A DNA stretch of 64,000 bases from Enterobacter kobei (lineage in GTDB: Bacteria; Pseudomonadota; Gammaproteobacteria; Enterobacterales; Enterobacteriaceae), in NCBI RefSeq assembly GCF_001729765.1, contig NZ_CP017181.1, forward strand, positions 3,596,001-3,660,000, read 5' to 3'. Position numbers and translations under genes: made by a program. This document shows, in pieces, positions 14,558 to 54,468 of this stretch. The notes beneath the pieces were generated by a model. The model saw nothing but the letters and a program-made list of their open reading frames with translations. It did not search any database and was not told the DNA's origin. The number at the start of each line of letters is the position of its first letter. The stretch's first letter is position 1.

Positions 14558-14581
14558 TCGATTGTTAGTATAACAAAAAGC

Positions 14582-14606
14582 CTTACGGCAACCTGGTTGC
14601 CGTAAG
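14582..14606. repeat. Strong hairpin between mcr-9 and wbuC
   Basis: CTTACGGCAACC (14582-14593) and GGTTGCCGTAAG (14595-14606) are perfect 12-base arms with almost no loop. No T-run follows, so termination is uncertain; it may stabilise or process the mRNA. Confidence 0.6.
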
Positions 14607-14633
14607 CTGCAAGAATGCAATAAGGCTTATAAT

Positions 14634-15110
14634 ATGAAACAACTTACTTTCAACGACCTACGCAAGCAAAGCGCACAAGCCGCAAATTCCCCCCGCTTAC
14701 GTGCCCATCATAATTTCCACCCTGAATTGAGCGACCCGGTGCAGCGTCTGGCTATTGCTATGGAACCGGGAACTTATGTTCGCCCTCATCGCCACCCGCA
14801 TACTTTTGAACTGCTGACATCCCTTACCGGTCGCTTTTTGGTATTGAACTTTGATGACCTGGGTAACCTGACCCAGCGCGTCGTGTTAGGTGAGGACTGT
14901 AAAGTGCTGGAGATGGATGCAGGCACCTGGCATACCGTATTGTCACTGGATGAAGGCGGCGTTATTTTTGAGGTAAAACACGGTAGGTACCAGCCTGTTG
15001 CTGATCAAGATGCCGCCCCATGGGCCCCCGCCGAAAACGAGCCGGGAACTGCAGAGCTGATGAAATGGTACACACAGGCGCAAGTAGGTGATGGCGGATA
15101 TCCGCGGTAA
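14634..15110 (+). CDS. wbuC: WbuC-family cupin protein
   Basis: A 158-residue cupin of the WbuC family. The cupin motif EPGTYVRPHRHPHTFELL (about residues 42-60) supplies the metal-binding His residues, and the second part of the barrel includes MDAGTWHTVLSL. Members sit in O-antigen or sugar clusters and their reaction is not settled. It follows mcr-9 by 76 bases in the same direction and is the usual downstream neighbour. It is complete in this window. Confidence 0.85.
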   Translation: MKQLTFNDLRKQSAQAANSPRLRAHHNFHPELSDPVQRLAIAMEPGTYVRPHRHPHTFELLTSLTGRFLVLNFDDLGNLTQRVVLGEDCKVLEMDAGTWHTVLSLDEGGVIFEVKHGRYQPVADQDAAPWAPAENEPGTAELMKWYTQAQVGDGGYPR

Positions 15111-15322
15111 TTAATGCGTTGCACGGAGTGCCATTCTCTCCTTCGCGCCAACTTCAAAGGCTAAGACGCTTCCTCCCAAATCACCTACTCGTAAACCTGT
15201 GGCAAGAGTAGAAAATCATCTTATGCAAATAACAGGCAATATCCTTACCGAGGTCGGGATGCAGGCAAAACACCAGCAGAACGCAAAGTATCTCCAGTAA
15301 GAGTACAATTTTCATCTACATT

Positions 15323-16672
15323 TTATCGCGCAGATTGCAGTGGCAGGACAATGCTGACCAGTACGCCTGAGGTAAACTGGCTGGCAGGGGCTAAAGTAAC
15401 TTTCCCACCCAGCCGCGTGACGCATGCTTTGACTATCGCTAAGCCCAACCCAGAGCCGGGTTGGGTCACGCCTTCAGGGCGATAAAATGCATCGAACACG
15501 CGCATCCTTTCTTCTGCGGCAATACCGGGACCGTTATCTTCAACTTTAATGATCGCTTCGTGCTGCGATACCATCACGCTGAGATCAATTTGTCCGTGTT
15601 CCGGTATATAGCGGATTGCGTTTTCTACCAGATTTTTCACGATAATAGTGAGTGTGTATTTATCGGTGTAAACCAGCTGACTCGCACTGGCAGTTTCCAG
15701 TACGCCAATATCAATACTTTTTTCCAGAGCAAGTGGATGCAGGGATTCAATCACCTCCCTGAATAACTGTGTAATGAGCAGAGGCTGATTATTTCCTTGC
15801 CGCGTATTTTGCTGTTCGCGGGCAAGCAGAAGCAGCTGTTCTAACAAGTTTTTGGTTCGGCTTAACCCTTGTTGCAGGCTGTTCAGCCGGAATTGCGCTT
15901 CGGGCGACATTTCGCTCGCCGACAGCCGCTCCGCCTGTAGCGACAATGCCGTTAGCGGGGTACGTAACTCATGGGCCGCATCGGCGATAAAACGTGACTG
16001 TGTCTGCATGGCATCGTTAACTTTGTGCAACAATTTATTGATACCACCCACAAATGGACGAATTTCATCAGGAATGGCATCTTCAGGGAACGGCGTCAAA
16101 TTGCGTTCATCTCGCTGATGCACCTCATCGGCAAGGAGTGAAACGGGGCGAAAGGCTTTCCGGATCAGATCAGTCGCAACCAGCAACAGTATCGGCAACA
16201 GCAGACTGAGCGGGATCAACGTGCGCAGTGCGCTTTCAAATGAGATTTCGTCGCGTACGTCAAGCTGCTGACCAATGGCGACCAATTGGGTGGGTGAAAG
16301 TCGATGCACCAATACACGATACGATTCTCCGCCGGAAATTACGTTCTGAAAACCTTCATGCATGGGCGTTTCCAGCTGAAAAGTGGGGTCGCGGGCCTGC
16401 AGGGAATTACCGTTTTCCGATATGAATTCCACCACCACTCGGGAATCATTATCACCATCCAGTTGCTTAACAAGAGTCTGCGAGTCAGGGTTGTCATATA
16501 TCACACTGGCGATTTGGGTCAGGGTGCCATCCTGTAGTTCATGGGCTTCGTCGAGTGCAAAATAGAAGGTAAGACCACAGGAAATAACTGCGGTAAATAA
16601 AATGGCGACGCTCAGGGCTACCGAGAGCTGTAGCTTCAGAGAGTTTTTCACTCGCTTTTGGAAACCAGCCAT
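15323..16672 (-). CDS. qseC: Sensor histidine kinase QseC-type
   Basis: A 449-residue membrane kinase: membrane segments near residues 15-35 and 150-170, HAMP region, H-box FIADAAHELRTPLTAL, N-box NLVENAIRYIPEHG and DNGPGIAAEE, and GSGLGLAIVKACV. The family responds to host signals and cross-talks with the PmrAB/lipid A modification network. It overlaps qseB by 25 bases, so the two are translationally linked. Relatives next to mcr-9 have been proposed to control its induction by colistin; that link is from the literature, not visible here. Confidence 0.85.
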   Translation of the reverse strand: MAGFQKRVKNSLKLQLSVALSVAILFTAVISCGLTFYFALDEAHELQDGTLTQIASVIYDNPDSQTLVKQLDGDNDSRVVVEFISENGNSLQARDPTFQLETPMHEGFQNVISGGESYRVLVHRLSPTQLVAIGQQLDVRDEISFESALRTLIPLSLLLPILLLVATDLIRKAFRPVSLLADEVHQRDERNLTPFPEDAIPDEIRPFVGGINKLLHKVNDAMQTQSRFIADAAHELRTPLTALSLQAERLSASEMSPEAQFRLNSLQQGLSRTKNLLEQLLLLAREQQNTRQGNNQPLLITQLFREVIESLHPLALEKSIDIGVLETASASQLVYTDKYTLTIIVKNLVENAIRYIPEHGQIDLSVMVSQHEAIIKVEDNGPGIAAEERMRVFDAFYRPEGVTQPGSGLGLAIVKACVTRLGGKVTLAPASQFTSGVLVSIVLPLQSAR

Positions 16673-17316
16673 CCGACCCCCCTGACATTTTTGATGGCAT
16701 TCCGGCCGAGCTTTTTACGTAGAGCGTGGATGAAATACTCAACAGCGTTACTTTCAATCTCATCCCCCCAGCCATAAATACGGTCTTCAAGATCGCTGCG
16801 AGAGAGAATACCGCCGGGGCGCTGCATGAGTGCTTCCAGAAGAGCATACTCGCGCTTCGAAAGTAAAAAGTTCTCTCCGCTGGCCAACAAACACACTTCG
16901 TGACTGACCGGGTTCAGGCTGAGCACACCGTTACTCAGCAATCGATCACTGTTGCCGTTATGTCGTCGCAAAACAGCGCGTATCCGCGCGAGCAGTTCGC
17001 TGAACTCGAACGGTTTAATTAGGTAATCGTCTGCTCCACTGTCGAGGCCGTGAAGTCTGTCCGTAAGGGCATCCCGCGCGGTGACAATCACCACCGGTAC
17101 GGATGATCCCTGACGGCGAAGTGCGTTCATGACGCTAAAGCCGTCCTGTCCCGGCAGCCCAAGATCCAGGAGCACAATGTCATAATGCTGCGCGAAGCAA
17201 CTGGCCAGCGCATCATTGCCATTTTTCATCCAGTCCACCGCATACGACGCATCGCGTAACGAATTCGCCACCACGTCGCCGATCATCAGATCATCTTCAA
17301 CCAGTAAAATTCTCAT
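16648..17316 (-). CDS. qseB: Response regulator QseB-type
   Basis: A 222-residue OmpR-family regulator: acidic pocket VEDD near residues 7-10, phosphoacceptor Asp in DIVLLDLGLPG (about residue 51), Lys in the DYLIKPFEF segment, and a C-terminal winged helix (about 125-220). It precedes and overlaps qseC. Only about 18 bases separate its ATG from the end of the neighbouring transposon (near 17334), so the native promoter has been replaced and expression must depend on sequence in that transposon end. Confidence 0.87.
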   Translation of the reverse strand: MRILLVEDDLMIGDVVANSLRDASYAVDWMKNGNDALASCFAQHYDIVLLDLGLPGQDGFSVMNALRRQGSSVPVVIVTARDALTDRLHGLDSGADDYLIKPFEFSELLARIRAVLRRHNGNSDRLLSNGVLSLNPVSHEVCLLASGENFLLSKREYALLEALMQRPGGILSRSDLEDRIYGWGDEIESNAVEYFIHALRKKLGRNAIKNVRGVGWLVSKSE

Positions 17317-17333
17317 CGCGTTGATAATCCCTA

Positions 17334-17495
17334 TGTGTAGTGGCTCGCAATCGAAATCCCTCCGACTCGCAATCAGCGCATATTTCGGCTCACATTAACT
17401 GCAAATGAAAAACGCCCCCGACTCACATTAAGTGACAATGGGCTCGCAATCAGCCAGACGGACTCGCAATCCAGTCCGCCGGGCTCACAATAACT
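17334..17495. repeat. Transposon end with seven short repeats at about 21-bp spacing
   Basis: Seven copies of RRCTCRCAWT start at 17342, 17364, 17387, 17420, 17441, 17461 and 17482. The steps are 22, 23, 33, 21, 20 and 21 bases, so most sites face the same side of the helix. The stretch lies between the stop of the ATPase gene (17510) and qseB. It has the look of multiple transposase-binding sites at one end of a Mu/Tn7/Tn5053-like element; the terminal TGTGTAG would be at 17334. Confidence 0.75.
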
Positions 17496-27212: not shown

Positions 27213-27336
27213 GGATATTTATCACAAGACAAATCAGTCATACACATCATTTTTTTAATTAAAGAAATACCGGTGAACGCCGTTATATCCGCTTATCCAG
27301 ACACAACGAGACACTATTATCGGTAATGACTCCAAC

Positions 27337-27840
27337 TTATTGATAGTGTTTTATGTTCAGATAATGCCCGATGACTTTGTCATGCAGCTCCACCGATTTT
27401 GAGAACGACAGCGACTTCCGTCCCAGCCGTGCCAGGTGCTGCCTCAGATTCAGGTTATGCCGCTCAATTCGCTGCGTATATCGCTTGCTGATTACGTGCA
27501 GCTTTCCCTTCAGGCGGGATTCATACAGCGGCCAGCCATCCGTCATCCATATCACCACGTCAAAGGGTGACAGCAGGCTCATAAGACGCCCCAGCGTCGC
27601 CATAGTGCGTTCACCGAATACGTGCGCAACAACCGTCTTCCGGAGCCTGTCATACGCGTAAAACAGCCAGCGCTGGCGCGATTTAGCCCCGACGTATCCC
27701 CACTGTTCGTCCATTTCCGCGCAGACGATGACGTCACTGCCCGGCTGTATGCGCGAGGTTACCGACTGCGGCCTGAGTTTTTTAAATGGCGGAAAATCGT
27801 GTTGAGGCCAACGCCCATAATGCGGGCGGTTGCCCGGCAT
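27337..27840 (-). CDS. insB: IS1 InsB (transposase part)
   Basis: A 167-residue InsB frame, which is made as an InsAB' fusion by -1 frameshifting. The DDE-type catalytic region includes [30 protein letters not shown] and the C-terminal [16 protein letters not shown]. It is complete. Because the left inverted repeat is damaged, this copy could make transposase but probably cannot itself be mobilised efficiently. Confidence 0.88.
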
Positions 27841-28300: not shown

Positions 28301-29627
28301 ATCTATGGTCACTCCCGTTTTTGCAACACCGATTTTGACGACAAGTTGGCTTGCTTGAATCTATCCGGCGTCTGAATGGGATTTTATTCCCGCGCCTCGA
28401 TGAGTTCCGCGCCTGATGAACCTCCAGAAAATATACGGCTTCAATGAGCCTTTCCGTTTTACAGGTTCCTCAACAGGCCGGTGGGCCGTTAGTATCATCA
28501 ATATCAGTATTCGCAAAACCAGATGAATGATTGTTTAAACTGGTGTATTTCTGCCTTTATGCTTCGTAAGTTTGCTGTCGCGCCGTCAGTGCCCAGGCTA
28601 TTCTGGCCAGCTTGTTTGCCAGAGCACAGGTGACGACAAAGTTGCTTTTCCGACACAACAACTCCCTGACCCAGTCGGCCAACTTGCCAGACTGGTGTTC
28701 CAGTTTTTGTATGAATACCCTGGCACACTGAACCAACAAAGTTCGGATCTTTTTGTTGCCCCGCTTGCTAATCCCTAACAATGTCGTCCGACCTCCCGTG
28801 CTGTACTGTCGGGGTACCAGCCCTGTTGCCGCCGCAAAGTCACGGCTGCTGGCGTACTGCTTCCCGTCGCCAATCTCAGTTGAAATAGTACTGGCAGTCA
28901 GCGTTCCAACGCAGGGAATACTCAGCAAGCGCTGTCCAACCTCATCTTCGTCCAACTTTCGTTTCAACTGAGATTCCAGATCTTTAATCTGCTCAACAAG
29001 ATAGTGATAATGCTGTTGTAATTTCAGCAGTAACTGGCTGAGATAAAGAGGCAAACTACTGTCCTCAAGAAGGGTACTCAGTCGACTAATAACGGCAGCA
29101 CCTCGCGGAACGCTGATACCAAATTCCAGCAGAAAAGCATGCATCTGATTAGTTGTTTTCACCTTATCCTGAACCAGGGATTCACGGACACGATGCAGAG
29201 CTCGCATTGCCTGCTGAGATTCGGTTCTGGGCTGCACGAAACGCATAGATGGACGTGATGCTGCTTCACAGATAGCTTCAGCATCAACGAAGTCATTTTT
29301 GTTGCTTTTAACGAATGGGCGGACAAATTGCGGTGATATCAGCTTTGGAAAATGCCCTAACTCTGCCAGCTTGCGTGCCATAAAGTGAGAACCGCCACAG
29401 GCTTCCATCGCGATGGTTGTTGCCGGGCATGTCGCCAGAAATTCGATTAGCTTTGGTCGGGTGAATTTTTTACGGTAAACGGCCTTCCCACGATGATCCT
29501 GACAATGAATATGGAAAGAGTTCTTACCCAGATCGATACCAATAAGCGCAATGTTTTCCATGATGGTTCTCCGAATGAAAGCCTGTCCTCAGCATAGTAC
29601 TGGGAAGGAGGGAGTGACCATCTCATT
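28301..29627 (-). mobile_element. IS5075/IS4321-type element, copy 2 (in a transposon end)
   Basis: 1327 bp inserted after the CGGA of a Tn21-type 38-bp end, the preferred target of this element. Its nucleotide ends are as in copy 1, in the opposite orientation. Confidence 0.93.
28557..29561 (-). CDS. IS5075/IS4321-type transposase, copy 2
   Basis: A 334-residue IS110-family transposase identical in protein sequence to copies 1 and 3, with the DEDD residues (GIDLGKNSF, MEACGGSHF, NDFVDAEAI) and the C-terminal PRQYSTGGRT motif. The start has a GGAG-like site upstream. It is located within the left terminal repeat of the Tn3-family region that carries the redox cassette. Confidence 0.92.
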   Translation of the reverse strand: MENIALIGIDLGKNSFHIHCQDHRGKAVYRKKFTRPKLIEFLATCPATTIAMEACGGSHFMARKLAELGHFPKLISPQFVRPFVKSNKNDFVDAEAICEAASRPSMRFVQPRTESQQAMRALHRVRESLVQDKVKTTNQMHAFLLEFGISVPRGAAVISRLSTLLEDSSLPLYLSQLLLKLQQHYHYLVEQIKDLESQLKRKLDEDEVGQRLLSIPCVGTLTASTISTEIGDGKQYASSRDFAAATGLVPRQYSTGGRTTLLGISKRGNKKIRTLLVQCARVFIQKLEHQSGKLADWVRELLCRKSNFVVTCALANKLARIAWALTARQQTYEA

Positions 29628-29649
29628 AATTATCCCACGCTAAGACTAT

Positions 29650-30000: not shown

Positions 30001-30753
30001 TTATAGGTAACATTCGCTCCACGATATAATGATATCGGCAACGTATTCAGCATCCTGAGCATGAGTCAGAAGGTGATCCGCCTTACCCAACGAAATGAAA
30101 CTCTTGGGATGCTTTGCTGCTTTGAATATTTTTTCGGCCTGCTCAATTAACACAGTATCATCTTCAGTCGCATGAAAAATAAGCAGAGGCTTGTTCATGG
30201 CGAACACCTTATGAGCGATTTTGTGTTCCTGAATATTGTCCAGCATCTGTTTCTTTAAGGTAAATACCCGCCCGGCCAGCTCAACGGGATAGGCTCCATG
30301 CTGGTTAATGTTTTCAACATCATCCTTAAAAAGACGTTTTACGTGTGTCAGTTCTCCGGGTGATCCTATGGTGACAACGGCCTTTGCCTCAGGAACTTCG
30401 CCGGCAATAGACAGAATGGCCGATCCCCCCAGGCTATGGCCGATGAGCAAAGAAGGCGCTTCGTACTGTCGGCGGAGATAATCTACCGCGCAAAGCAGGT
30501 CCGAAATATTGGATGAGAAGTTGGTGTTGGAAAAATCCCCTTCGCTGTTTCCCAGACCAGTAAAATCAAACCGGAGAACGGCGATAGCATTCTCTGTCAG
30601 TTTCCGCGCAATACGCGCCGCGCCTTTGAGGTCTTTGCCACACGTAAAACAATGAGCTAACAGCGCAAACGCTTTAGGATTTTCAGGAAGTTCAAGCAAT
30701 CCGGCCAGTTCTTCACCAGCCGCATTTTTGAACGTAAATTTTAGTTTTTTCAT
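30001..30753 (-). CDS. Alpha/beta hydrolase of the OsmC-partner type
   Basis: A 250-residue serine hydrolase-fold protein: the oxyanion-hole side reads HCFTCGKDLKGA (about residues 34-45), the nucleophile elbow is GHSLGG (about 104-109), an Asp lies in HATEDDTV and the His in GKADHLLTHA. In many bacteria this domain is fused to an OsmC domain; here OsmC is a separate gene at the other end of the same cassette. It is transcribed divergently from the exporter gene, with one cassette operator in the gap. The substrate is unknown; a thioester or peroxide-related detoxification is plausible. Confidence 0.8.
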   Translation of the reverse strand: MKKLKFTFKNAAGEELAGLLELPENPKAFALLAHCFTCGKDLKGAARIARKLTENAIAVLRFDFTGLGNSEGDFSNTNFSSNISDLLCAVDYLRRQYEAPSLLIGHSLGGSAILSIAGEVPEAKAVVTIGSPGELTHVKRLFKDDVENINQHGAYPVELAGRVFTLKKQMLDNIQEHKIAHKVFAMNKPLLIFHATEDDTVLIEQAEKIFKAAKHPKSFISLGKADHLLTHAQDAEYVADIIISWSECYL

Positions 30754-30946
30754 AGGATATTCCAGGTCTTAAACTGATTTCATATGTTTGATCGCAGGGA
30801 AAAATAATCTTCTGCTCTGCATCTGGCATTACGCGTTTTCCTTCCTCTACTGGGGATGTGAAACAGAATTCATTCCGAATGCCTGTCCTCACCTTCCAGT
30901 TTGAAAGCTGATTATTGCTTCCTGTTCGGTGATCACTTACGCTATG

Positions 30947-30964
30947 CTACCAACTAGATGGTAG
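30947..30964. promoter_or_regulatory. Cassette operator 1 (hydrolase / exporter gap)
   Basis: CTACCAACTAGATGGTAG, a palindrome around CTAG (two central-flank mismatches), 30 bases before the exporter ATG and within the divergent gap to the hydrolase gene. It is the best copy of the motif shared by four promoters in 30.9-38.4 kb. Confidence 0.75.
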
Positions 30965-30993
30965 TTTACAAGAATTTTATGAGGTCTCACTGA

Positions 30994-31863
30994 ATGGCCA
31001 ATTGCGCGCTCATTCTTAAAATATCCCTGGCAATGCTGGCGTTTGCTGCAAACTCTATTCTGTGCCGTCTGGCCCTGCAGGGAGGCCACATTGATCCCCT
31101 TTCATTCAGCAGCCTCAGGCTGGCCAGTGGTGCACTCGTCCTGTCACCTTTCTTGTTTTATCACGCAAAAACTACATTATCGCTGTGGCGTCCGCTGAGC
31201 GGATTTTACCTCATGGTGTACGCAGTGCTCTTCTCTGTCGCCTATATCCATCTCGATACCGGGGCAGGTGCGCTGTTACTTTTTGGTGCCGTACAGTTTG
31301 CGATGGTGATCCACGGATTATTTAAAGGGGAATCACTCTCCGTTATGCGGGCTTGCGGTTTAGTTATTGCTCTGGCAGGAATTGCTGCCCTGCTGTTACC
31401 CGGGGCGAAGGCACCGCCGCTTTACAGTGCACTTATGATGATCGTTGCCGGATTAGCCTGGGCCGCCTATTCCGTCAGGGGGAGGGCGGGCCAGGCGGCC
31501 GGGGCTTCAACGGCGGCAAATTTTGTACTCGCCACGCCGATGGCTCTCGCTCTTTCGTTGCTGTTTATGAAGCAGGGTCACTATGATGCTGCGGGCATTG
31601 CTTTGTCATTGCTGTCCGGTGCCGCCGCCTCAGCCGGTGCATATGTATTGTGGTATACCCTTTTACCCTCTCTCGGCTCTATCACCGCCAGTACCCTTCA
31701 GCTCAGCGTTCCCTGTCTGGCAATGCTAGGGGGTGTGGTATTCCTGGATGAATCACTGACGGTCAGAACGATATTTTCTGCCCTGGCGGTGCTGACTGGC
31801 ATTGTGATGGTGACACGCGAGAAATCCCCCCGTCAGTCGATGACAAAGGCGAGAGAACCTTAA
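30994..31863 (+). CDS. EamA/DMT-family exporter
   Basis: A 289-residue membrane protein with about ten hydrophobic segments arranged as two EamA repeats (residues 1-135 and 145-280), the drug/metabolite transporter family of YdcZ/RhaT/PecM type. Conserved features are the N-terminal FAANSILCRLAL, SLRLASGAL and the second-repeat GAAASAGAYVLWY. It should export a small metabolite from the cytoplasm. The ATG is 30 bases downstream of an operator shared with the redox genes; the aminotransferase gene follows in the same direction. Confidence 0.85.
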   Translation: MANCALILKISLAMLAFAANSILCRLALQGGHIDPLSFSSLRLASGALVLSPFLFYHAKTTLSLWRPLSGFYLMVYAVLFSVAYIHLDTGAGALLLFGAVQFAMVIHGLFKGESLSVMRACGLVIALAGIAALLLPGAKAPPLYSALMMIVAGLAWAAYSVRGRAGQAAGASTAANFVLATPMALALSLLFMKQGHYDAAGIALSLLSGAAASAGAYVLWYTLLPSLGSITASTLQLSVPCLAMLGGVVFLDESLTVRTIFSALAVLTGIVMVTREKSPRQSMTKAREP

Positions 31864-31996
31864 TAACGCAATTAATTCATGCAGTTGTGATGATTCTCTT
31901 ATGTTAATCACACGAGCCAGTTTTCCCGCTCCGGCATCAGACTGACAGTAATACTGAGGTCGACGTTTCTGACTACACCTAAGGCAGGTTTATGAA

Positions 31997-33220
31997 ATGA
32001 AATATGATTTTGATGAGTACGTAAGCAGAGAGAAAACAGACAGTCTCACCGTGGACGGCTGGCGGGAATACCTGTTTTCGGGACAGTCCGAATTTGCAAT
32101 GCGGTATCCGGCAGAAGGGCTAATCAACCTCTGGGTTGCTGACATGGCTTTTGCCACACCAGAGCCGATTCTTCAGGCCATCAGAGACCGTCTGGATAGA
32201 AAAATACTCGGCTACACTAAAATCTACGACGAAGAATACTATGAGATCTTTGGCAGCTGGTGTGAGCGACAATATGGTCACCGTTTCAAAACGGAAGACA
32301 TTGTGCTGTCTCCGGGCATTATTCCCGCGCTGAACCGTCTCGTCCCGCTTCTGACCGACATGGATGACAGTATTCTTATTATGACGCCTTCATATGGCCC
32401 GTTTAAAAAGGCGGGTGAATACAGTCAGCGTCGCGTGGTGTACTCGGCGTTAAAAAAATCAGCAGGCGGCTGGGAACCTGACTGGGAAGACTTTGCACGC
32501 AAAGCCAGTCAGGCCGATTTACGTGTGAAAATTCTTTTCCTGTGTAATCCGCATAACCCGACCGGACGAGTCTGGCGGCCTGATGAACTTAAGCGGATTA
32601 TTGAAATTTGCCTGGCCAATGACATCTGGGTGATATCTGACGAAATTCACTGCGACCTGTCCCGAAGCGGTATCGGTCATACACCGGCCGCCTCTCTTTT
32701 CCCTGATTCTACACGCATTATTACCTGCATGTCCTCGAGTAAAACATTCAATCTGGCCGGGAATTTGTTGGCAAATATCATTATTCCGGATCCCGGTGTC
32801 AGAAGCGAGTGGCGTCTCAGACACGACGAGTTCATCTCTCCACTGAGCCTGGCAGCAAACAAAGCGGCGTGGAGTGAATGTGATGACTGGCTTGTCCATC
32901 TGAGGGAATATATTGACGGCAATTTCCAGTACCTGCACGACTATCTCAAAAGCTATTTACCCGAAACCAGGTTCTCGATCCCCGAAGGGACATATCTGGC
33001 CTGGATAGATATTAGCCGCTACCTGCCCGACACCGCAGGTGAGGATTTATCGCTGTATTTTGCCCGGGAGTCAGGGGTCCTTCTTGAAGGGGGCTTGCTG
33101 TTTGTCGACAATGGGGACGGATATATCCGGTTAAATCTGGCCTGCCCACGGAGTATGCTGACAGCAGGGATGAAAAGAATTTCACAGGTACTGCGGATAC
33201 CGGCTCCTCATCGTGTATAA
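31997..33220 (+). CDS. PatB/MalY-like PLP-dependent C-S lyase/aminotransferase
   Basis: A 407-residue fold-type I PLP enzyme of the MalY/PatB group: substrate-side LWVADMAFATPEPI near residues 47-60, LCNPHNPTGRVW (about 180-191), ISDEIHCDLS (214-223), and the PLP-lysine in SSSKTFNLAGN. Such enzymes split cystathionine or S-conjugated cysteines, releasing thiols. It lies 133 bases after the exporter gene and is probably co-transcribed. With an exporter, thioredoxin and OsmC in the same cassette, breakdown of S-conjugates is a reasonable inference, not shown. Confidence 0.85.
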   Translation: MKYDFDEYVSREKTDSLTVDGWREYLFSGQSEFAMRYPAEGLINLWVADMAFATPEPILQAIRDRLDRKILGYTKIYDEEYYEIFGSWCERQYGHRFKTEDIVLSPGIIPALNRLVPLLTDMDDSILIMTPSYGPFKKAGEYSQRRVVYSALKKSAGGWEPDWEDFARKASQADLRVKILFLCNPHNPTGRVWRPDELKRIIEICLANDIWVISDEIHCDLSRSGIGHTPAASLFPDSTRIITCMSSSKTFNLAGNLLANIIIPDPGVRSEWRLRHDEFISPLSLAANKAAWSECDDWLVHLREYIDGNFQYLHDYLKSYLPETRFSIPEGTYLAWIDISRYLPDTAGEDLSLYFARESGVLLEGGLLFVDNGDGYIRLNLACPRSMLTAGMKRISQVLRIPAPHRV

Positions 33221-33357
33221 CCCCTTTCTCTCTGGCCGTTTTGTCCTGTCAGGATGTCGTCAGAACCCGGCATAACACCCTGTGCCGGGAACACAAAAGG
33301 CACGGATGAACAGGTCGTGAATATTCTTAGTGAAGCCTGCTGATGACATGTCTGGCG

Positions 33358-33387
33358 ACAAAAAAATGCCGCCCTTAAGGGGCGGCT
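33358..33387 (-). terminator. Terminator of the reductase operon
   Basis: The stem GCCGCCC / GGGCGGC (33368-33386) is followed on the minus strand by a T-run (A7 at 33360-33366). It ends the leftward operon Old Yellow Enzyme - FrnE-like - SDR. Confidence 0.85.
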
Positions 33388-33405
33388 TATGCCAGCGTCA
33401 CGGGG

Positions 33406-34179
33406 TTATCGTCTGACCGCCATGATGCCCGCATCGACATCCCAGATAGCGCCCGTCACCCATGAGGTTTTGTCAGACAACAGGAAGAGAATAGTGTTTG
33501 CCACATCTTCGGCAGTTCCGACGCGTCCCAGCGGGTGGAAATCGTTCAGCGACTTCATAGCATCTGCGATATCCGCTTTGTCCATGAAGCCTTCGTATAT
33601 CGGCGTATGAACAATCCCGGGAGACACCGCGTTGACACGAATACCCGCGCTGGCCAGCTCAATCGCCAGATTACGCGTCAGGGCATGCAGACCCGCTTTT
33701 GCCATTGAATAGGCCGAGGCCGGCGAGTCACCCAGTGCAGCCTGAGCACCAATCGAACCGACGTTGACGATAGACCCTTCGAGCTTCGCGGCGAGCATGT
33801 TCTTCACGACATCCTGTGTAATAAAGAACGTGGCTCGGTTCAGCGAAAGATACATGTCATAATCGGCAAAGCTGTGCTCGGTAAATCCTTTGGGCATGAA
33901 GATACCGGCGGCATTCACCATCAGGCTGATATCGCGATGGTGAGCATTAATTTCCTGACGGATAGTTTCCATACCTTCTTCGGTCATCAGGTTCGCCGCG
34001 ATGACCGCAACCGGTCCCAGAGGGCTCAGTTCTTTTTGCACCGCTTCGGCTTTGTCTTTTTTATTCCCGGTCAGCACGACACTGCCGCCCGCTTCCAGTA
34101 CCATGCGTGCCACGGCCAGGCCCATGCCGCTGGTACCGCCGACGACGAGCAGTTTTTTACCTTTGAAAAAAGTGTTCAT
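33406..34179 (-). CDS. Short-chain dehydrogenase/reductase (SDR)
   Basis: A 257-residue classical SDR: cofactor motif VVGGTSGMGLA (about residues 12-22), NAAG (about 90), catalytic Ser near GSIGAQAA and YSMAKAGLH (Tyr-x3-Lys), and PGIVHTPIY. NAD(P)H-dependent reduction of a carbonyl is expected; the substrate is unknown. Last gene of a three-gene leftward operon; a terminator follows its stop codon. Confidence 0.85.
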   Translation of the reverse strand: MNTFFKGKKLLVVGGTSGMGLAVARMVLEAGGSVVLTGNKKDKAEAVQKELSPLGPVAVIAANLMTEEGMETIRQEINAHHRDISLMVNAAGIFMPKGFTEHSFADYDMYLSLNRATFFITQDVVKNMLAAKLEGSIVNVGSIGAQAALGDSPASAYSMAKAGLHALTRNLAIELASAGIRVNAVSPGIVHTPIYEGFMDKADIADAMKSLNDFHPLGRVGTAEDVANTILFLLSDKTSWVTGAIWDVDAGIMAVRR

Positions 34180-34244
34180 TTTCTGACTCCATTACTGGTG
34201 GGTAAGACGTTGCCGGCAGCGTGAAACTGCCGGCGGTTGACGGA

Positions 34245-34946
34245 TTAAATACTGCAGCCATCCGTTCCGCAGGTCTGACCCGCAGTGGCTGAAAATTCGG
34301 TTTGCTGTTCATCCCAGACCTGACGCAGGGCATTCAAAAAGTTATCTGCTGCCTGAGCCCCGCTGATGGCATATTTTTCGTTCATCACAAAAACCGGAAC
34401 GCCGCTGAGGCCAATAGACTGTGCGTGGGCTTCATCGTCGGAAACGGTGGCGCGAAAATCGTCATTTTCCAGGGCGGCTTCAGCGTCAGCTTTCGGCATA
34501 CCGGCTTCTACGGCCATGGCAACGAGCTGCTGACGGTCAAAGAGAGAGCGACCTTCGGTGATACTGCCATGATAAAAACGTTCTTCCACCGTGTCCGCAA
34601 TTCCGGCCTTACGCGCGGCAACCAGCAGGGTGTGTGCATCTTCTGTATCACCAAACATCATGCCGTCGAAGTTGTAGATCAGACCTTCAGATTTACCGGC
34701 GGTGCCCACCTGATTCATCATCAGCTCCGCTGAATGCTGACTGCCCAGCTTTTTAACGATGGCATCCTTAAAAGGCATCGCGGGAGTACCACCGGCCAGA
34801 CGGTAGCTGTGATGGCGGATCACCACCTGGTCGCGAAATTCAAAGCGATTCAGACCCTGTTCAAATCTTTTTTTAGCAATCCAGCACCACGGGCAGACCA
34901 AATCTGACCAGATATCGATGGTAAGGGTGGGTTTCAGCGTTTGCAT
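34245..34946 (-). CDS. DsbA-family (FrnE-like) oxidoreductase
   Basis: A 233-residue cytosolic thioredoxin-fold protein with a helical insert, FrnE/2-hydroxychromene isomerase-like. The CPWC active site is in DLVCPWCWIAKKR (about residues 16-28), the cis-Pro region is LSGVPVFVMNE, and there is no signal peptide. A Cys-rich tail (TCGTDGC) resembles that of FrnE proteins in stress resistance. It lies between the SDR and Old Yellow Enzyme genes in the same direction, so it is likely to act in thiol repair in the same response. Confidence 0.83.
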   Translation of the reverse strand: MQTLKPTLTIDIWSDLVCPWCWIAKKRFEQGLNRFEFRDQVVIRHHSYRLAGGTPAMPFKDAIVKKLGSQHSAELMMNQVGTAGKSEGLIYNFDGMMFGDTEDAHTLLVAARKAGIADTVEERFYHGSITEGRSLFDRQQLVAMAVEAGMPKADAEAALENDDFRATVSDDEAHAQSIGLSGVPVFVMNEKYAISGAQAADNFLNALRQVWDEQQTEFSATAGQTCGTDGCSI

Positions 34947-35011
34947 AATGATTCCTCAAAGACGTTGGGCGGTCGGTTCTCACTTATCAGAGAACCGCGA
35001 CCGTATGGGAT

Positions 35012-36118
35012 TTATTGCGCCTGCCAGACCGGGTAATCGGTATAGCCTTTTTCCGGGGAACCACTGACGCCGTAGTAGGTGGCGCGGTCACTTTCTGCCA
35101 GTGGCCAGCCGTTTTGCATTCTTTCAACCAGATCCGGGTTAGCGATGTAGGGCACACCAAATGCCACCAGATCCAGCTCATCATCTTCCAGAGCCTGCTC
35201 TGCGATATCACGGGTAAAACCGCCGGCAGCGATGATGGTGCCTTTAAACGTGTTGCGAAAACGGCGGCGGAAGCCTTCCGGAAGTGGCGCTTTGGTGTAC
35301 ACCGGCTGATAGTAAAGGTGTACGTAGGCCAGTTCCCGCTGACCGAGCGCGTCGGTGATGGCTGACCAGGTTTGCTCTTCACCTTCATACGGCGCGAGGT
35401 CATAAATGCGGCCGAACGGTGACAGGCGCACGGCAACGTGGCTGTTACCCACGGCTTCCGCCACGGCGTCAATGGTCTCCAGCAGGAAACGCTGACGATT
35501 TTCCACCGAGCCGCCGTATTCGTCGGTGCGGGTGTTCAGTTCGCTACTGAGGAACTGGTCAAAGATGAATCCGTTTGCCGCCATGATTTCCACGCCGTCA
35601 AAGCCGGCTTCCATCGCCAGGCGTGCGGAGTGCACGAAGTCTGCAGTGATGCGTTTAACTTCATGCGTTTCCAGCGCGCGTGGCTGGCTTGGTACAACCG
35701 GGCCCGGTTCTCCGGATTCGGTCAGCGCAAAAACGGTGGTATTGACCGCCTGAACGGTGCCCGCTGAAACCGGCGCTATGTGGCCTGGCTGAAGAGAGAC
35801 GTGAGACATACGGCCGACGTGCCAGAGCTGCGCGAAAATACGGCCACCTTTGGCGTGAACCGCTTGTGTCACTTTACGCCAGCCCTGGACGTGTTCGTCG
35901 TTGTAGATACCAGGGGTATAAAGGTAACCCCGGCCTTCTTCTGAAACCGGCATCCCTTCGGTGATGAGCAGGCCAGCAGAAGCACGCTGTGCATAGTACA
36001 AAGCCACGACCTCATCCGGCACGTCATTCATGGTGCGGGTGCGGGTCATCGGTGCCATGACTACACGGTTTTTTAACGCCAGGCCAGACAGATTGTAGGG
36101 GGTGAAAAGCTTACTCAT
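35012..36118 (-). CDS. Old Yellow Enzyme family flavin reductase (NemA-like)
   Basis: A 368-residue FMN-dependent ene-reductase: LFTPYNLSGLALKNRVVMAPMTRTR at the N-terminus, FAQLWHVGRMSH, the FDGVEIMAANGFIFDQFLS segment and AAGGFTRDIAEQAL near the C-terminus. In this copy the usual H..NGYL reads AANGFIFDQF, with Ala in place of the first His. Such enzymes reduce quinones, maleimides and other activated alkenes, or nitro compounds. First gene of the leftward operon with FrnE-like and SDR genes. The start at 36118 is the family start; an operator lies about 120 bases upstream. Confidence 0.88.
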   Translation of the reverse strand: MSKLFTPYNLSGLALKNRVVMAPMTRTRTMNDVPDEVVALYYAQRASAGLLITEGMPVSEEGRGYLYTPGIYNDEHVQGWRKVTQAVHAKGGRIFAQLWHVGRMSHVSLQPGHIAPVSAGTVQAVNTTVFALTESGEPGPVVPSQPRALETHEVKRITADFVHSARLAMEAGFDGVEIMAANGFIFDQFLSSELNTRTDEYGGSVENRQRFLLETIDAVAEAVGNSHVAVRLSPFGRIYDLAPYEGEEQTWSAITDALGQRELAYVHLYYQPVYTKAPLPEGFRRRFRNTFKGTIIAAGGFTRDIAEQALEDDELDLVAFGVPYIANPDLVERMQNGWPLAESDRATYYGVSGSPEKGYTDYPVWQAQ

Positions 36119-36237
36119 CGTATACCTCACAAAAAACAAAAAGGAGTATCCCGGCAGGGATTTGCACAGCCCGGCAGTATCATCGACTGGACGTCGCGCA
36201 CTGGAGTTGCATAAACATCTGATGGGTGGCAATATAC

Positions 36238-36255
36238 CAACCATCTAGTAGGTAG
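36238..36255. promoter_or_regulatory. Cassette operator 2 (Old Yellow Enzyme / thioredoxin gap)
   Basis: CAACCATCTAGTAGGTAG matches the CTACCAW-CTAG-WTGGTAG motif at most positions. It lies between the divergent reductase operon and the thioredoxin gene and could control both. Confidence 0.7.
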
Positions 36256-36331
36256 GTCAATGGGTGTGTCGTATTTTTTTGTCATAACGCAGCCATTCCT
36301 GAATTGTCACTCATTTTGCGAGGTCATCACC

Positions 36332-36661
36332 ATGCGTACATTAACAGCTTATAACGAAGATAATTTCCGCCAGATAGAGCAGTACAAAGGAATATCGGTG
36401 GTACGTTTCTCTGCACCCTGGTGTCCGCCCTGTCAGGCCAGCGAAGAAATGTTCAGTCAGTTTGCAGACCGGCTCGATAGAGATATTCAGGTGGGGAAAG
36501 TCAATGTAGATCAGGCGCCGGTGCTGACAACCAAATACGAGATCTGGGGGCTGCCGTCTGTGCTGATATTTCATGAAGGGCAATTAGTTAAACGCATACC
36601 GGGTGTGAAACCTGCATCGGTATATGCTCAGGCTATTGCGGACATAAAAAAAGGGCAGTAA
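36332..36661 (+). CDS. Thioredoxin-like protein
   Basis: A 109-residue thioredoxin with active site APWCPPCQAS (about residues 27-36) and the cis-Pro segment WGLPSVLIF. The CPPC centre replaces the usual CGPC, which shifts its redox potential. The Met at 36332 fits the family; GCGAGG precedes it. It is divergent from the Old Yellow Enzyme operon with an operator in the gap. A hairpin with A- and T-runs overlapping the stop codon (about 36649-36670) can end transcription in both directions. Confidence 0.87.
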   Translation: MRTLTAYNEDNFRQIEQYKGISVVRFSAPWCPPCQASEEMFSQFADRLDRDIQVGKVNVDQAPVLTTKYEIWGLPSVLIFHEGQLVKRIPGVKPASVYAQAIADIKKGQ

Positions 36662-36670
36662 TGCCCTTTT
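36649..36670. terminator. Bidirectional terminator between thioredoxin and the AhpD-like gene
   Basis: AAAAGGGCA / TGCCCTTTT around GTAA, flanked by A- and T-runs. It serves the rightward thioredoxin gene and the leftward tetR-ahpD-like operon, which converge here. Confidence 0.85.
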
Positions 36671-36690
36671 AACGTGGAATTTATTAATGC

Positions 36691-37029
36691 TTAACCGCGT
36701 GCCTGACCGACGGCATCCAGAGTGCGGGCTGAATAAATGACCGCCGCGCCAGCGTTGAGGTTAATCGCCACGCCCAGCGCTTCAGCAATTTCAGCGTCGG
36801 TTGCACCGGCTTTCACAGCGGCGTCGGCGTGAAAAGCAATACAGCCGTCGCAGCGGGTTGTGACTGCGCACGCCAGGGCAATGAGTTCACGCACTTTTGC
36901 GCCCAAAAGGTCAGTTTTGTTACCTGCGTTGCCCAGGGCAACCACGCCTTTCATGGTCTCGGGGGTCAGTTTGCCCAACTCGCCTAAACGTTGCATTAAC
37001 TCTGAGCGATAGTTGTTCCAGTCCAGCAT
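36691..37029 (-). CDS. AhpD-like carboxymuconolactone decarboxylase-family protein
   Basis: A 112-residue helical protein with the alkylhydroperoxidase signature: VRELIALACAVTTRCDGCIAFHADAAVKAG holds the CxxC redox pair (Cys near residues 61 and 64) and the following His. Members reduce peroxides or act as redox partners. It starts 4 bases after the stop of the TetR gene, so the two form an operon and it is the regulator's co-expressed enzyme, possibly a sensor-linked scavenger. Confidence 0.85.
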   Translation of the reverse strand: MLDWNNYRSELMQRLGELGKLTPETMKGVVALGNAGNKTDLLGAKVRELIALACAVTTRCDGCIAFHADAAVKAGATDAEIAEALGVAINLNAGAAVIYSARTLDAVGQARG

Positions 37030-37033
37030 AGTG

Positions 37034-37615
37034 TCATTCTCCTGAATGAGGGGTATTAAGAAGCAGTTTTATATACTTAAGGCTGTTGGCGAAGACTTCG
37101 GGTCTGGCCGTTGCATGCGCCACTACGCTTGAGCCTTCACAGACATTAATGATCATCAAAGCAATATCTGATGGTTCGGCATGGGATGAAAACTCACCTG
37201 ACTCCATGCCCGCCCTGACGACTTTTGTGAGCCACTCGATTTGCATATCGAAATAAAGTGATGTCTGTACAGTAATTGCCTGAGGCAGATTGGCGGTCTC
37301 TGCTGACAACGCACAACACAGTGGCAGTAGCGAAGCTTTATGGCTTTGCGCGAAGATATCGATGTAAGCCGCAATTCTTCTCTCCGCGCTTTTCTCAGTC
37401 GCCTCTATCTGCTCAAATACGCGTTGTGTATCAGAGAACGCCTGTATTACCACCTGCTCACCCAGAATATCTTTGGTCGGGAAATGGTGATGAATACTGG
37501 CCTTGGTGATACCCACTATTTTTGATAAATCAGCATAGCTGAATACTGAATACCCTTTTTCGCGCATCAGGTGTTCTGCTTCGCTGAGCAGCCGTTCCCG
37601 TGTCATGGTTGTCAT
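37034..37615 (-). CDS. TetR-family regulator of the redox cassette
   Basis: A 193-residue TetR/AcrR regulator: the helix-turn-helix is YADLSKIVGITKASIHHHFPTK (about residues 23-44). The ligand-binding half contains LLPLCCALSAE, a vicinal Cys pair, which would allow direct sensing of electrophiles or oxidants as in NemR. A copy of the shared palindrome lies 13-30 bases before its ATG, indicating autorepression; the same palindrome is at three other promoters of the cassette. It is co-transcribed with the AhpD-like gene. Confidence 0.88.
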   Translation of the reverse strand: MTTMTRERLLSEAEHLMREKGYSVFSYADLSKIVGITKASIHHHFPTKDILGEQVVIQAFSDTQRVFEQIEATEKSAERRIAAYIDIFAQSHKASLLPLCCALSAETANLPQAITVQTSLYFDMQIEWLTKVVRAGMESGEFSSHAEPSDIALMIINVCEGSSVVAHATARPEVFANSLKYIKLLLNTPHSGE

Positions 37616-37627
37616 AATTACTCCATA

Positions 37628-37645
37628 TAATCTACTAGTTGATAG
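37628..37645. promoter_or_regulatory. Cassette operator 3 (tetR promoter)
   Basis: TAATCTACTAGTTGATAG: the CTAG core and one half-site (TTGATAG) match the motif, the other half is weaker. It is just upstream of the regulator's ATG, a normal site for autorepression. Confidence 0.6.
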
Positions 37646-37756
37646 ATTATATTGTTGCTATTTTTCCGTAGCAAGTTGTATCACTGACTCAGTATCGTGC
37701 AGAGCTGAACGTCACTGCCATCCTGCATTCTGAATGGCAGCATTACATCTCTGACA

Positions 37757-38314
37757 TCACGCCAGGCGTGTAATCATTTCAACCGGATTAGCCAGAGTAT
37801 CGTGGATTGGCGAATTCTTTTGCATTTCGCTGACCAGCGCTTCTAACTCCTCGCGACTGGCGGTCTTGCTCGTAAGGTGAACATCGACGCGAATAGATTT
37901 CGCACCTTTACGCACGTTGCTGTCCAGCCCAAGGAAGCCGTTGAGGTTGATATCGAAATTAAGATCCAGCTCGATACCGTCCAGGTCGATCCCTTTTTCA
38001 GCAGCCATCATGGTAAGGGTGGCGGTATAACAGCCAGCCAGCGCCTGCATGATGTATTCAGTCGGGCTCATGCCGGTATCGGTGCCGAGTAAACCTGCGG
38101 GTTCATCACCGATATTAGAAAATTTCCCCACACGGCTGGTATCGATAACGCCGTTTTGGATTGTGGCGCCGGTCTCTGTGCGAACGGTTAATCCGCCGCT
38201 GGAACGGGCTTTCATCTGGAAAGTCAGGTTACCCAGGCCAGGCTGGCTGCGAACTGCTTCACGGGTATTGTGGATCGCAGCTGCGTCTGCAGAAGGTTTA
38301 ACGGTAGTAGACAT
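37757..38314 (-). CDS. OsmC-family peroxide-reducing protein
   Basis: A 185-residue OsmC/Ohr-superfamily protein. The central helix MQALAGCYTATLTMMAAEKGI contains one conserved Cys, and the second Cys region is less clear. LTVRTETGATIQNG forms the N-terminal sheet. Family members reduce organic hydroperoxides or handle thiol adducts. A separate transcript with its own operator about 50 bases upstream. Related OsmC domains are fused to the type of alpha/beta hydrolase found at the left end of this cassette. Confidence 0.83.
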   Translation of the reverse strand: MSTTVKPSADAAAIHNTREAVRSQPGLGNLTFQMKARSSGGLTVRTETGATIQNGVIDTSRVGKFSNIGDEPAGLLGTDTGMSPTEYIMQALAGCYTATLTMMAAEKGIDLDGIELDLNFDINLNGFLGLDSNVRKGAKSIRVDVHLTSKTASREELEALVSEMQKNSPIHDTLANPVEMITRLA

Positions 38315-38364
38315 AATGGCTCCTGTAATTTCTTGATAAAAGGTATAGCTGGTGTAACCAGCAC

Positions 38365-38382
38365 CAATCATCTAGTTGGTAG
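38365..38382. promoter_or_regulatory. Cassette operator 4 (osmC promoter)
   Basis: CAATCATCTAGTTGGTAG matches the shared palindrome with a perfect right half-site (TTGGTAG). It lies 51-68 bases upstream of the OsmC start. Confidence 0.7.
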
Positions 38383-38498
38383 ATTAGTGTCGCGAACCTC
38401 TTTTGTCTACTCTTTTATAAAAAATAGGGGGAAAAGAACCCAGCAGGCTGTTTTATTTCATAATAACCATTTGATTTTTTTATAATCTTCCCAGCCGC

Positions 38499-39083
38499 TC
38501 ACTCTTGCAGCAATCCAGCCTTTACCCGAAGGATAGTCTGGCGGGTGGTATTAAATTCCCGGGCAATAGCACTGATACTGATGCCAGCATTTAGGCGCTC
38601 TGTCACTGTTTGCTTTTGTTCCTCGCTCAGGATGGGGGGGCGACCGAAGCGTTTTCCAGCCGCTTTTGCCCTCGCAATACCTGAATACGTTCGCTCAAGC
38701 AGCAAATCCCGCTCAAACTCCGCTACAGCAGAAATTACCTGCATAGTCATTTTTCCGGCCGGACTGGTCAAGTCAACGCCTCCGAGTGCGAGACAATGAA
38801 CGCGAATATCTAAAGCCGCCAGTTGCTCTACTGTTTTTCGGATATCCATCGCATTACGACCCAGACGGTCAAGTTTGGTGACAATCAGTACATCCCCATT
38901 TTCCATGCGATCTAGCAACCGGATAAATCCGGGGCGTTCGCTGGCAGCAACCGAGCCACTGATATGCTCCTCAATAAGTCGTTGGGATCTGATGGCAAAA
39001 CCCGCCGCTTCAATTTCACGACGCTGGTTTTCTGTGGTCTGTTCCAGAGTTGAGACCCTGCAGTAGGCAAAAACACGTGACAT
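38499..39083 (-). CDS. tnpR: Tn3-family resolvase (serine recombinase)
   Basis: A 194-residue serine resolvase: catalytic Ser in [12 protein letters not shown] (Ser11), the [29 protein letters not shown] linker, and a C-terminal helix-turn-helix ([20 protein letters not shown]). It resolves cointegrates at the res site between it and the divergent tnpA fragment. The frame is intact. It is of the Tn21-subgroup type and probably belongs to the transposon that brought the redox cassette. Confidence 0.9.
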
Positions 39084-39242: not shown

Positions 39243-39839
39243 ATGCCACGGCGACAGATACTGAGCAGCGAAGAGCAGGAACGCTTACTGGTTATACCAG
39301 ATGATGAAATTATTCTGACCCGAATGTGTTTTCTGAACGAACCGGATATTGCGCTCATTAATAAGCACCGAAGGCCAGCGAATCGCCTGGGCTTTGCTGT
39401 ATTACTCTGTTATCTGCGTGGACCTGGATTTATTCCGGACAAAAGCAGTGCTCCTCACAATGGCGTTGTATCCAGGGTTGCTTCCCGACTGAAACTTCAG
39501 CCTGATTTATGGCCGGAATATGCATCCAGAGAGCAAACCCGCTGGGAACATCTGACCGAACTTTATCGCTACCTGGAACTATCCCCGTTCAGCCGGTCAA
39601 TGCAAAAAGACTGTATCCGTCATCTGCACCCCTATGCCATGCGAACTGACAAAGGATTTATGCTGGCGGAAGAAATGCTCAGCTGGCTACATAACAATAA
39701 TGTTATTTTCCCTTCTGTTGAAGTGATCGAACGGACGCTTGCCGAAGTCGTCACGCTCGCTAACAGATCGGTATTTTCGACACTTACCGCGCAACTGGAA
39801 AAGCAGCATAAATCAGCACTCGACAGCCTGCTCATATCA
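39243..39839 (+). pseudogene. tnpA: Tn3-family transposase, N-terminal fifth only
   Basis: About 199 residues (MPRRQILSSEEQERLLVIPDD ... KSALDSLLIS) of a Tn3-family transposase, the N-terminal DNA-binding region. At 39840 the frame runs into the 38-bp end of the mercury transposon. The missing C-terminal part does not reappear on the right side of that element within the window, so this was not a clean insertion or was followed by deletion. The sequence is a relative of, but not identical to, the full TnpA at 57.7-60.7 kb. Confidence 0.85.
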
Positions 39840-39860
39840 GGGGTCGTCTCAGAAAACGGA

Positions 39861-42833: not shown

Positions 42834-44519
<1,686 letters not shown>

Positions 44520-54033: not shown

Positions 54034-54468
54034 ATGGAAAACAATTTGGAGAACCTGACCATTGGCGTTTTCGCCAGGACGGCCGGGGTCAATGTGGAGA
54101 CCATCCGGTTCTATCAGCGCAAGGGCTTGCTCCCGGAACCGGACAAGCCTTACGGCAGCATTCGCCGCTATGGCGAGACGGATGTAACGCGGGTGCGCTT
54201 CGTGAAATCAGCCCAGCGGTTGGGTTTCAGCCTGGATGAGATCGCCGAGCTGCTGCGGCTGGAGGATGGCACCCATTGCGAGGAAGCCAGCAGCCTGGCC
54301 GAGCACAAGCTCAAGGACGTGCGCGAGAGGATGGCTGACCTGGCGCGCATGGAGGCCGTGCTGTCTGATTTGGTGTGCGCCTGCCATGCGCGGAAGGGGA
54401 ACGTTTCCTGCCCGCTGATTGCGTCACTGCAAGGGAAGAAAGAACCGCGCAGTGCGGACGCGGTGTAG
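54034..54468 (+). CDS. merR: MerR (right operon)
   Basis: A 144-residue Hg(II)-responsive regulator with the three Cys of the metal site ([19 protein letters not shown]). Close to the left MerR but with a different C-terminal tail ([11 protein letters not shown] versus [11 protein letters not shown]). Divergent from merT; the terminal repeat follows 16 bases after its stop codon. Confidence 0.95.

Follow-up and report, generated by a model that had tools for sequence, protein, structure and literature searches.

Enterobacter kobei (assembly GCF_001729765.1) carries, within positions 3,596,001 to 3,660,000 of contig NZ_CP017181.1, a cassette of ten genes that we read as a thiosulfinate (allicin) tolerance (alt) cluster on a Tn3-family transposon, in which the TetR-family protein AltR would act as repressor through four composite operators; we give this reading a probability of about 0.88. 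The whole 64,000-nucleotide stretch is referred to as the window, and positions are counted from its first base. A first-pass annotation made from the sequence alone had described the segment as a general redox and electrophile regulon. That function gave way to a known one: the alt cluster and AltR have already been described, and the window copy is a mobile version of this system. The idea of a self-contained regulon with one operator type was supported by comparison with related loci. The sequences themselves, their conservation, their uniqueness within the genome and the structure of the transposon were established directly.

Gene content of the cassette

All ten reading frames of the cassette are open, and their order and identities agreed with the first-pass annotation. 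The Pantoea reference for the identities given below was the P. agglomerans T88c cluster from onion (L010), with which nine of the genes shared 58-88% protein identity. At the left lies an alpha/beta hydrolase of 250 amino acids (aa; 30001..30753, minus strand; Pfam Hydrolase_4, 6e-15), 89.6% identical to the hydrolase of a second alt lineage in Klebsiella (L011). It is followed on the plus strand by a DMT/EamA-family exporter (289 aa; 30994..31863; Pfam EamA, 6e-21; 57.8% identity) and a PatB/MalY-type C-S lyase (407 aa; 31997..33220; TIGR04350, 4e-99, with 332 bits slightly below the cut-off of 340; 60.8%). The minus strand then encodes an SDR-family oxidoreductase (257 aa; 33406..34179; Pfam adh_short_C2, 2e-51; 87.2%), a DsbA/FrnE-like oxidoreductase (233 aa; 34245..34946; Pfam DSBA, 1.4e-39; 67.8%) and an Old Yellow Enzyme (OYE)/alkene reductase (368 aa; 35012..36118; Pfam Oxidored_FMN, 9e-80; 80.4%). 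Beyond a thioredoxin-like protein on the plus strand (109 aa; 36332..36661; Pfam Thioredoxin, 2e-18; 77.1%), the minus strand encodes an AhpD-like protein of the carboxymuconolactone decarboxylase (CMD) family (112 aa; 36691..37029; Pfam CMD, 8e-18; 87.5%), AltR (193 aa; 37034..37615; 66.1% to P. agglomerans AltR) and an OsmC-family protein (185 aa; 37757..38314; Pfam OsmC, 3e-20; 73%).

The OVR-A region of P. ananatis is reported to contain fabG/SDR, DsbA-like, nemA/OYE, thioredoxin, CMD, TetR, EamA, patB and osmC genes, together with gor and a 528-bp gene (PMC5817063). The SDR, DsbA-like, OYE, thioredoxin, AhpD/CMD, TetR, DMT, PatB and OsmC families of this set are all present in the window.

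Predicted operators in the window and the genome

A joint consensus for the altR box and the repeat IR2 of P. ananatis has been published as YWAYCWAC-N6-GTWGRTWR (22 bp, 16 specified positions; PMC13178969). We found a site with a single mismatch to it at each of the four promoter gaps where the first-pass annotation had placed a shared operator. Predicted operator 1 (30947..30968, plus strand) lies in the hydrolase/DMT gap and is kept in related loci. Predicted operator 2 (36234..36255, minus strand), in the OYE/thioredoxin gap, sits between the -35 (36260) and -10 (36231) elements of the predicted OYE promoter. Predicted operator 3 (37628..37649, plus strand) is the altR box and overlaps the predicted altR promoter (37674-37646), and predicted operator 4 (38365..38386, plus strand) lies in the osmC promoter. 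The altR promoter of the window thus contains an altR box, and repeats of related sequence stand at further alt genes. When the window was shuffled 20 times with dinucleotide composition preserved, no site came within one mismatch of the consensus, and 0.9 sites per shuffle were found at two.

The 18-bp palindrome on which the shared operator had first been based is real, and is the inner axis of this longer composite operator. It was recovered at 30947 (0 mismatches), 36238 (2) and 38365 (2), against 0.05 expected per shuffled window, and was not recovered at 37628, where it had also been placed and where the sequence departs from it by more than three mismatches. The 37628 site, which contains CTACTAGTTGATAG, is a strong inverted repeat about an axis unlike that of the 18-mer at the other sites.

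In the whole genome (4,927,478 bases in 2 contigs), the extended consensus at two or fewer mismatches hit nothing but the four operators, one of which matched in two overlapping registers. There were three matches with three mismatches: operators 1 and 4 each gave one in a shifted register, and the other lay elsewhere; because the reversed-pattern control gave eight matches at three or fewer mismatches, equal to the pattern's own, these three-mismatch sites carry no weight. The core CTAGWWGRTAG occurred five times in the genome, in every case inside the four operators, compared with 17 occurrences of its reversed control. One further candidate, at 32121 within patB, was discarded: although only two mismatches separate it from the published consensus, it has six to the oriented one, its position is in a coding region, and 0.9 such matches per shuffle arise by chance.

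The first-pass annotation had placed all ten genes under one regulator. Operators do lie near the start codons of tetR (12 bp), DMT (25 bp), osmC (50 bp), trx (76 bp) and OYE (115 bp). The PatB, SDR, DsbA/FrnE and AhpD/CMD genes have no site of their own and, as we infer, would be reached only as downstream genes of operons, and control of the hydrolase is doubtful.

The predicted altR and OYE promoters were two of the three top sigma-70-like matches of the segment (10/12), and both overlap operators; the third, at 38457-38486, does not. In all, the segment held 15 promoter-like matches against 8.0 expected. The arrangement of the OYE promoter, TTGACC-operator-TATAKT, was found as a strict pattern in 14 of the 16 sources scanned. 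A looser version tried on four loci was present in L016 and L027 and absent from L012 and L019.

Symmetry of the operator

The published consensus was used, with N6 left free, to scan the window and 21 loci. Operator statistics were drawn from the window and 19 loci, 20 sources in all, with 91 hit groups and 30 non-redundant sites; near-duplicates L008, L014, L015, L016 and L027 were retained and thinned by sequence, while L006 and L007 (scanned, and near-duplicates of the window with a second module), L050 and L051 were set aside. Removal of hits with more than three mismatches to the oriented consensus left 83 groups and 26 non-redundant sites; the eight groups so removed were window 32121, L008 12173, L014 15472, L016 15474, L018 15726, L019 733 and 10012, and L020 4507. 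The scan reached AltR proteins of about 40% identity and left out 13 loci with TetR proteins of at most 38% identity (L029-L041) and the Pseudomonas clusters.

Operators of the same type were found in all 20 sources. These comprised near-identical copies in Escherichia, Vibrio, Kluyvera and Tatumella, more distant ones in Buttiauxella, Pectobacterium, Proteus, Erwinia, Pantoea, Raoultella, Klebsiella, Rahnella, Enterobacter and Serratia and, at the far end, a cluster in Burkholderia with 39.6% AltR identity. The N6 spacer proved not to be free, as 21 of the 30 unfiltered non-redundant sites have TAGWWG at this position. The same 30 sites showed three symmetry axes spaced 2 bp apart. The strongest, at 8.5 (0.674 of pairs complementary), is the CTAG axis of the first-pass palindrome; that at 10.5 (0.593) is the axis of the published altR box and IR2; and a third lies at 6.5 (0.441), with other axes at 0.09-0.28. 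A null model with random spacers and the strand chosen anew gave, over 2000 trials, a mean of 0.400 and a maximum of 0.519 for axis 8.5, and a mean of 0.263 and a maximum of 0.356 for axis 6.5, so that both observed values exceeded all trials. For the spacer-dependent pairs of the inner axis, 0.700 were complementary, whereas the null averaged 0.312 and reached at most 0.447 (2000 trials, strand choice allowed). The filtered sites gave 0.762 against a null mean of 0.251; the filter itself inspects the spacer and so favours a composite reading, and we relied on the unfiltered test with strand choice in the null. The sites share descent, and the null trials therefore overstate the number of independent observations.

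We suggest on grounds of symmetry that two AltR dimers probably share each operator, on overlapping 22-bp pseudo-palindromes with centres 4 bp apart, in the manner of CprB and QacR. CprB, a TetR regulator of the gamma-butyrolactone type, is reported to place two dimers on opposite faces of a 22-bp element, QacR does likewise on a longer element, and in several instances the operators of such dimer-of-dimers TetR proteins are non-palindromic (PMC4150764). The ScbR model, of the same type as CprB, was the best NCBIfam match to AltR, with a score far under the cut-off. The axes of the AltR operator are consistent with two overlapping dimer sites of this type. In the 26 filtered sites, the register shifted by 4 bp agreed with the consensus at 95% of positions in its right half, on a par with the main register (98% and 89%), and at 75% in its left half; the opposite 4-bp shift reached 63% and 51%, and the background was 37%.

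In a possible though less favoured account, a single AltR dimer per operator would read one 22-bp inverted repeat whose flexible centre has a preferred sequence, and this central preference would produce the extra axes. In P. ananatis the altR box repeats perfectly about one axis, and mutation of one half-site abolishes repression (PMC13178969). The symmetry could also reflect indirect readout by such a dimer, and the second register of the four window operators, with 3, 2, 4 and 3 mismatches compared with one each in the first, is weak; both points count against two dimers. What tells against the single dimer is the strength of the shifted right half, the greater strength of axis 8.5 over 10.5, and the height of axis 6.5 above its null maximum.

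Whether AltR acts at IR2 was left unanswered in P. ananatis, where the authors allowed that control might be indirect, by way of another factor (PMC13178969). The exact published altR box and the exact IR2 were both present in Pantoea loci L010, L021 and L022, and both fall within a single operator family. The two therefore look like versions of one operator type, and direct binding of IR2 by AltR would be the simplest explanation. It is highly improbable that the IR2-like sites in the hydrolase/DMT and OYE/thioredoxin gaps serve another regulator, with AltR confined to the altR box: the authors' reservation leaves room for one, but the ten genes of the window cassette encode no further regulator, and IR2-like sites and altR boxes share one type of centre.

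Cysteines of AltR and the probable sensor

The first-pass annotation had proposed a Cys-Cys pair in the TetR protein as an electrophile sensor. AltR of the window has cysteines only at positions 100, 101 and 159, the same three positions as in P. ananatis AltR. In that protein thiosulfinates are sensed by Cys100, which allicin and dimethyl thiosulfinate require to release AltR, and Cys101 and Cys159 tune its sensing (PMC13178969). A sensing cysteine is thus retained from the earlier proposal, with Cys100 rather than the pair as the likely sensor in the window protein and the other two cysteines as modulators. Repression, induction and tolerance in the window copy are likewise expected by analogy with the P. 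ananatis work.

P. ananatis AltR was not de-repressed by N-ethylmaleimide (NEM), diamide, H2O2 or two disulfides (PMC13178969). Because it ignores NEM and diamide, we predict that these two compounds, which had been proposed as inducers of the window regulator, would fail on it. Hypochlorite and quinones, also proposed, are not named among the compounds tried on P. ananatis AltR in the accessible text of that report.

We considered whether the cassette is instead a NemR-like general electrophile or bleach regulon, in which the AltR clade would sense NEM, quinones, hypochlorite or diamide and not thiosulfinates. AltR has NemR (4yze, E=1e-9) as one of its sequence relatives of solved structure, the gene is called NemR in some public records, and the OYE is related to N-ethylmaleimide reductase. 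The OYE score of 360.4 bits does not reach the cut-off of 403 of the NemA model, however. A related core in the Pseudomonas PfAR-1 islands conferred resistance to allicin but no detectable gain in resistance to H2O2, cumene hydroperoxide (CHPO) or NEM (PMC7119367). On the P. ananatis inducers, the PfAR-1 phenotype and the OYE score we rejected this alternative, which we regard as very unlikely. Because the AltR cysteines match those of P. ananatis, and given the inducer data there and the PfAR-1 resistance profile, thiosulfinate tolerance rather than general electrophile defence appears to be the best reading.

A transposon carrying the cassette

Related loci identify the cassette as cargo of a Tn3-family transposon. 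The first-pass annotation had described a mobile island between Tn3-family remnants. The remnants are real and the mobility is supported by comparison; according to the related loci, the left and right remnants are opposite ends of a single transposon with the cassette inside. End-to-end copies were found in Vibrio furnissii (L014, 12,635 bp) and a Tatumella species (L016, 12,655 bp). Both have 38-bp terminal inverted repeats (37/38 identical) and 5-bp target duplications that differ between the two. L014 has reading frames for a 994-aa TnpA and a 194-aa TnpR, and L016 has long open frames at the matching places. The target duplications at two different sites show that the alt cluster has moved as a transposon. 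The V. furnissii copy has patB split into two reading frames (L014 14396-15617).

The window copy is not a full transposon. The inner part of its left terminal inverted repeat (29628..29644) has the same sequence as the corresponding inner stretch of the end repeat of L014 and differs from that of L016 by one base; the repeat is interrupted by an IS4321/IS5075-type element whose IS110-type transposase (334 aa; 28557..29561, minus strand) lies in the position of an annotated IS4321 in L006. To the right of the cassette are the serine resolvase TnpR (194 aa; 38499..39083, minus strand; Pfam Resolvase, 8e-38), matching a frame of the same length at the same place in L014, and the N-terminal part of the transposase TnpA (39243..39844, plus strand; Pfam DUF4158, 7e-45). 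Alignments to longer copies end at 39844, where another repeat starts with mercury-resistance genes beyond; the open reading frame continues to 39935, and most of tnpA and the right end are missing. The repeat at 39843/39844 is presumably of the Tn21 type. Among the papers listed by searches of open-licence literature on the alt transposon, and on the cassette in clinical plasmids, were the Pantoea reports and PMC12306174, but none that described the transposon.

Distribution and host range

AltR at 95% identity or more was encoded by 489 of 72,556 plasmid records; hosts among the matches listed were Klebsiella, Enterobacter, Escherichia, Leclercia, Serratia and Providencia, many of them from patients. 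The segment 29950-39900 was covered to at least 80% in 325 of the 5,000 top-scoring plasmid records, the limit of that list, and in 89 of 5,426 E. coli genomes. Among 394 genomes of the order, AltR at E <=1e-20 was found in one, that of the window itself, and a scan of one genome per species yielded 15 loci with AltR of at least 59% identity. Because of this distribution over plasmids and genomes, we regard the cassette as an accessory trait. We put at even odds the combined proposal that a pair of AltR dimers occupies one composite operator, of which the altR box and IR2 are versions, and that the Tn3-family transposon mobilises this regulon among human-associated Enterobacteriaceae and Vibrio on metal- and drug-resistance plasmids.

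Beyond the points on operator symmetry given above, some observations weigh against the alt cluster as we read it. Both gor and the 528-bp gene next to altR in Pantoea are absent from the ten window genes. Because gor is scarce in the mined representative alt clusters, where it was counted 2 times against 41 for altR (PMC12306174), we did not take it as defining membership. Operator 1 lies 193 bp from the hydrolase start, so that its control of this gene is doubtful. Many of the hosts listed are clinical Enterobacteriaceae, for which an Allium habitat is not obvious. Enteric hosts might keep the cluster against other reactive sulfur stress, for instance in the gut or where biocides abound, or it might simply hitch-hike with metal and drug resistance; the plasmid counts and patient sources fit such an account, as do the mcr-9 and mer genes nearby in the window. 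We consider this unlikely, as the ten genes are intact and the operators conserved, which hitch-hiking alone would not maintain.

Neighbouring genes and related modules

A gene for an MCR-9 family phosphoethanolamine--lipid A transferase (12938-14557; 1316 bits, cut-off 1240) lies about 15 kb from the cassette, together with sensor kinases and a nickel/cobalt exporter. This stretch matches mcr-9.1 plasmid records, though the window contig is chromosome-sized. merA and merR (42834-44519 and 54034-54468) lie to the right of the alt transposon. Near the left edge, a homologue of phage replication gene A (Phage_GPA) and methylase genes (3456-5759) suggest a prophage beside a plasmid-like block.

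In L006, sites with one or two mismatches to the AltR consensus occur at 27323-27348 and 28463-28488 (L007 1561 and 2701), in a neighbouring module that encodes a DUF1471/BhsA-like protein, a TetR protein (27.7% identical to AltR), DUF417, MsrB and MsrA. The DNA-binding domain of this TetR has a stretch nearly identical to that of AltR (KASIHYHF against KASIHHHF), which makes cross-control between the alt regulon and the MsrA/MsrB module plausible. The Raoultella plasmid L007 also has a second element (12375-17473; recombinase, IS481-type transposase, ExeA-like ATPase) with a TetR/DUF1471/DM13 module between DMT and PatB, and its PatB has a shorter annotation.

The second alt lineage, on a Klebsiella plasmid (L011 11260-24558), has an AltR about 60% identical and another gene order, and no Tn3 genes are annotated in the 24.6-kb stretch. 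AltR of 60-80% identity occurred in 51 plasmid records, Pantoea included. A TetR protein of 29.6% identity, present on many Klebsiella plasmids, lay outside an alt cluster in the one record examined (L013, an E. coli plasmid).

Proposed mechanism and significance

AltR would bind the four composite operators and silence the hydrolase, DMT-PatB, OYE-DsbA-SDR, thioredoxin, AltR-AhpD and OsmC units. Thiosulfinates from crushed Allium (or Brassica) tissue would enter the cell and modify Cys100, and the modified AltR would leave the DNA, so that the thiol-repair enzymes and the exporter could be produced.

A probable purpose is thereby proposed for a cassette that has been annotated piecemeal in hundreds of plasmid records. 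The unified operator with its two-dimer model, and the target-duplication evidence for movement by a transposon, are what the present analysis adds. The former offers a concrete answer to whether AltR itself reads IR2, the question left by the 2026 work (PMC13178969). Movement of thiosulfinate tolerance on a transposon would be relevant to onion disease and to allicin-type antimicrobials directed against enteric bacteria.

Comparison with known systems

Alt-like clusters across bacteria, including K. pneumoniae and other enterobacteria, have already been mined (PMC12306174). Unlike the present analysis, that work does not take up the operator in its accessible text, and words starting with Tn3 or transpos are absent from its main text. 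NemR and NemA of E. coli resemble the window system in that a cysteine-sensing TetR protein controls an OYE gene; they differ in their inducers (PMC13178969), and the window OYE falls under the NemA cut-off. For CprB and QacR a two-dimer stoichiometry has been described, while for AltR it is the symmetry of the operator that points to one.

With the PfAR-1 islands of Pseudomonas fluorescens, the window shares osmC, sdr, tetR, dsbA, trx, ahpD and oye, as found in the resistance-conferring clones, and the legend of the PfAR-1 synteny figure also names dmt and a cystathionine beta-lyase (PMC7119367). The ten window genes are without kefF, kefC and 4-oxalocrotonate tautomerase, and the PfAR-1 copies are genomic islands (PMC7119367). 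The window cluster has Tn3-family ends, whereas the P. agglomerans plasmid copy examined has none. Compared with alt/OVR-A of P. ananatis, the window differs in gene order, in the added alpha/beta hydrolase and in being without gor and the 528-bp gene; it has in common with it nine gene families, the AltR cysteines at 100, 101 and 159, the operator consensus and an operator in the altR promoter (PMC13178969, PMC5817063).

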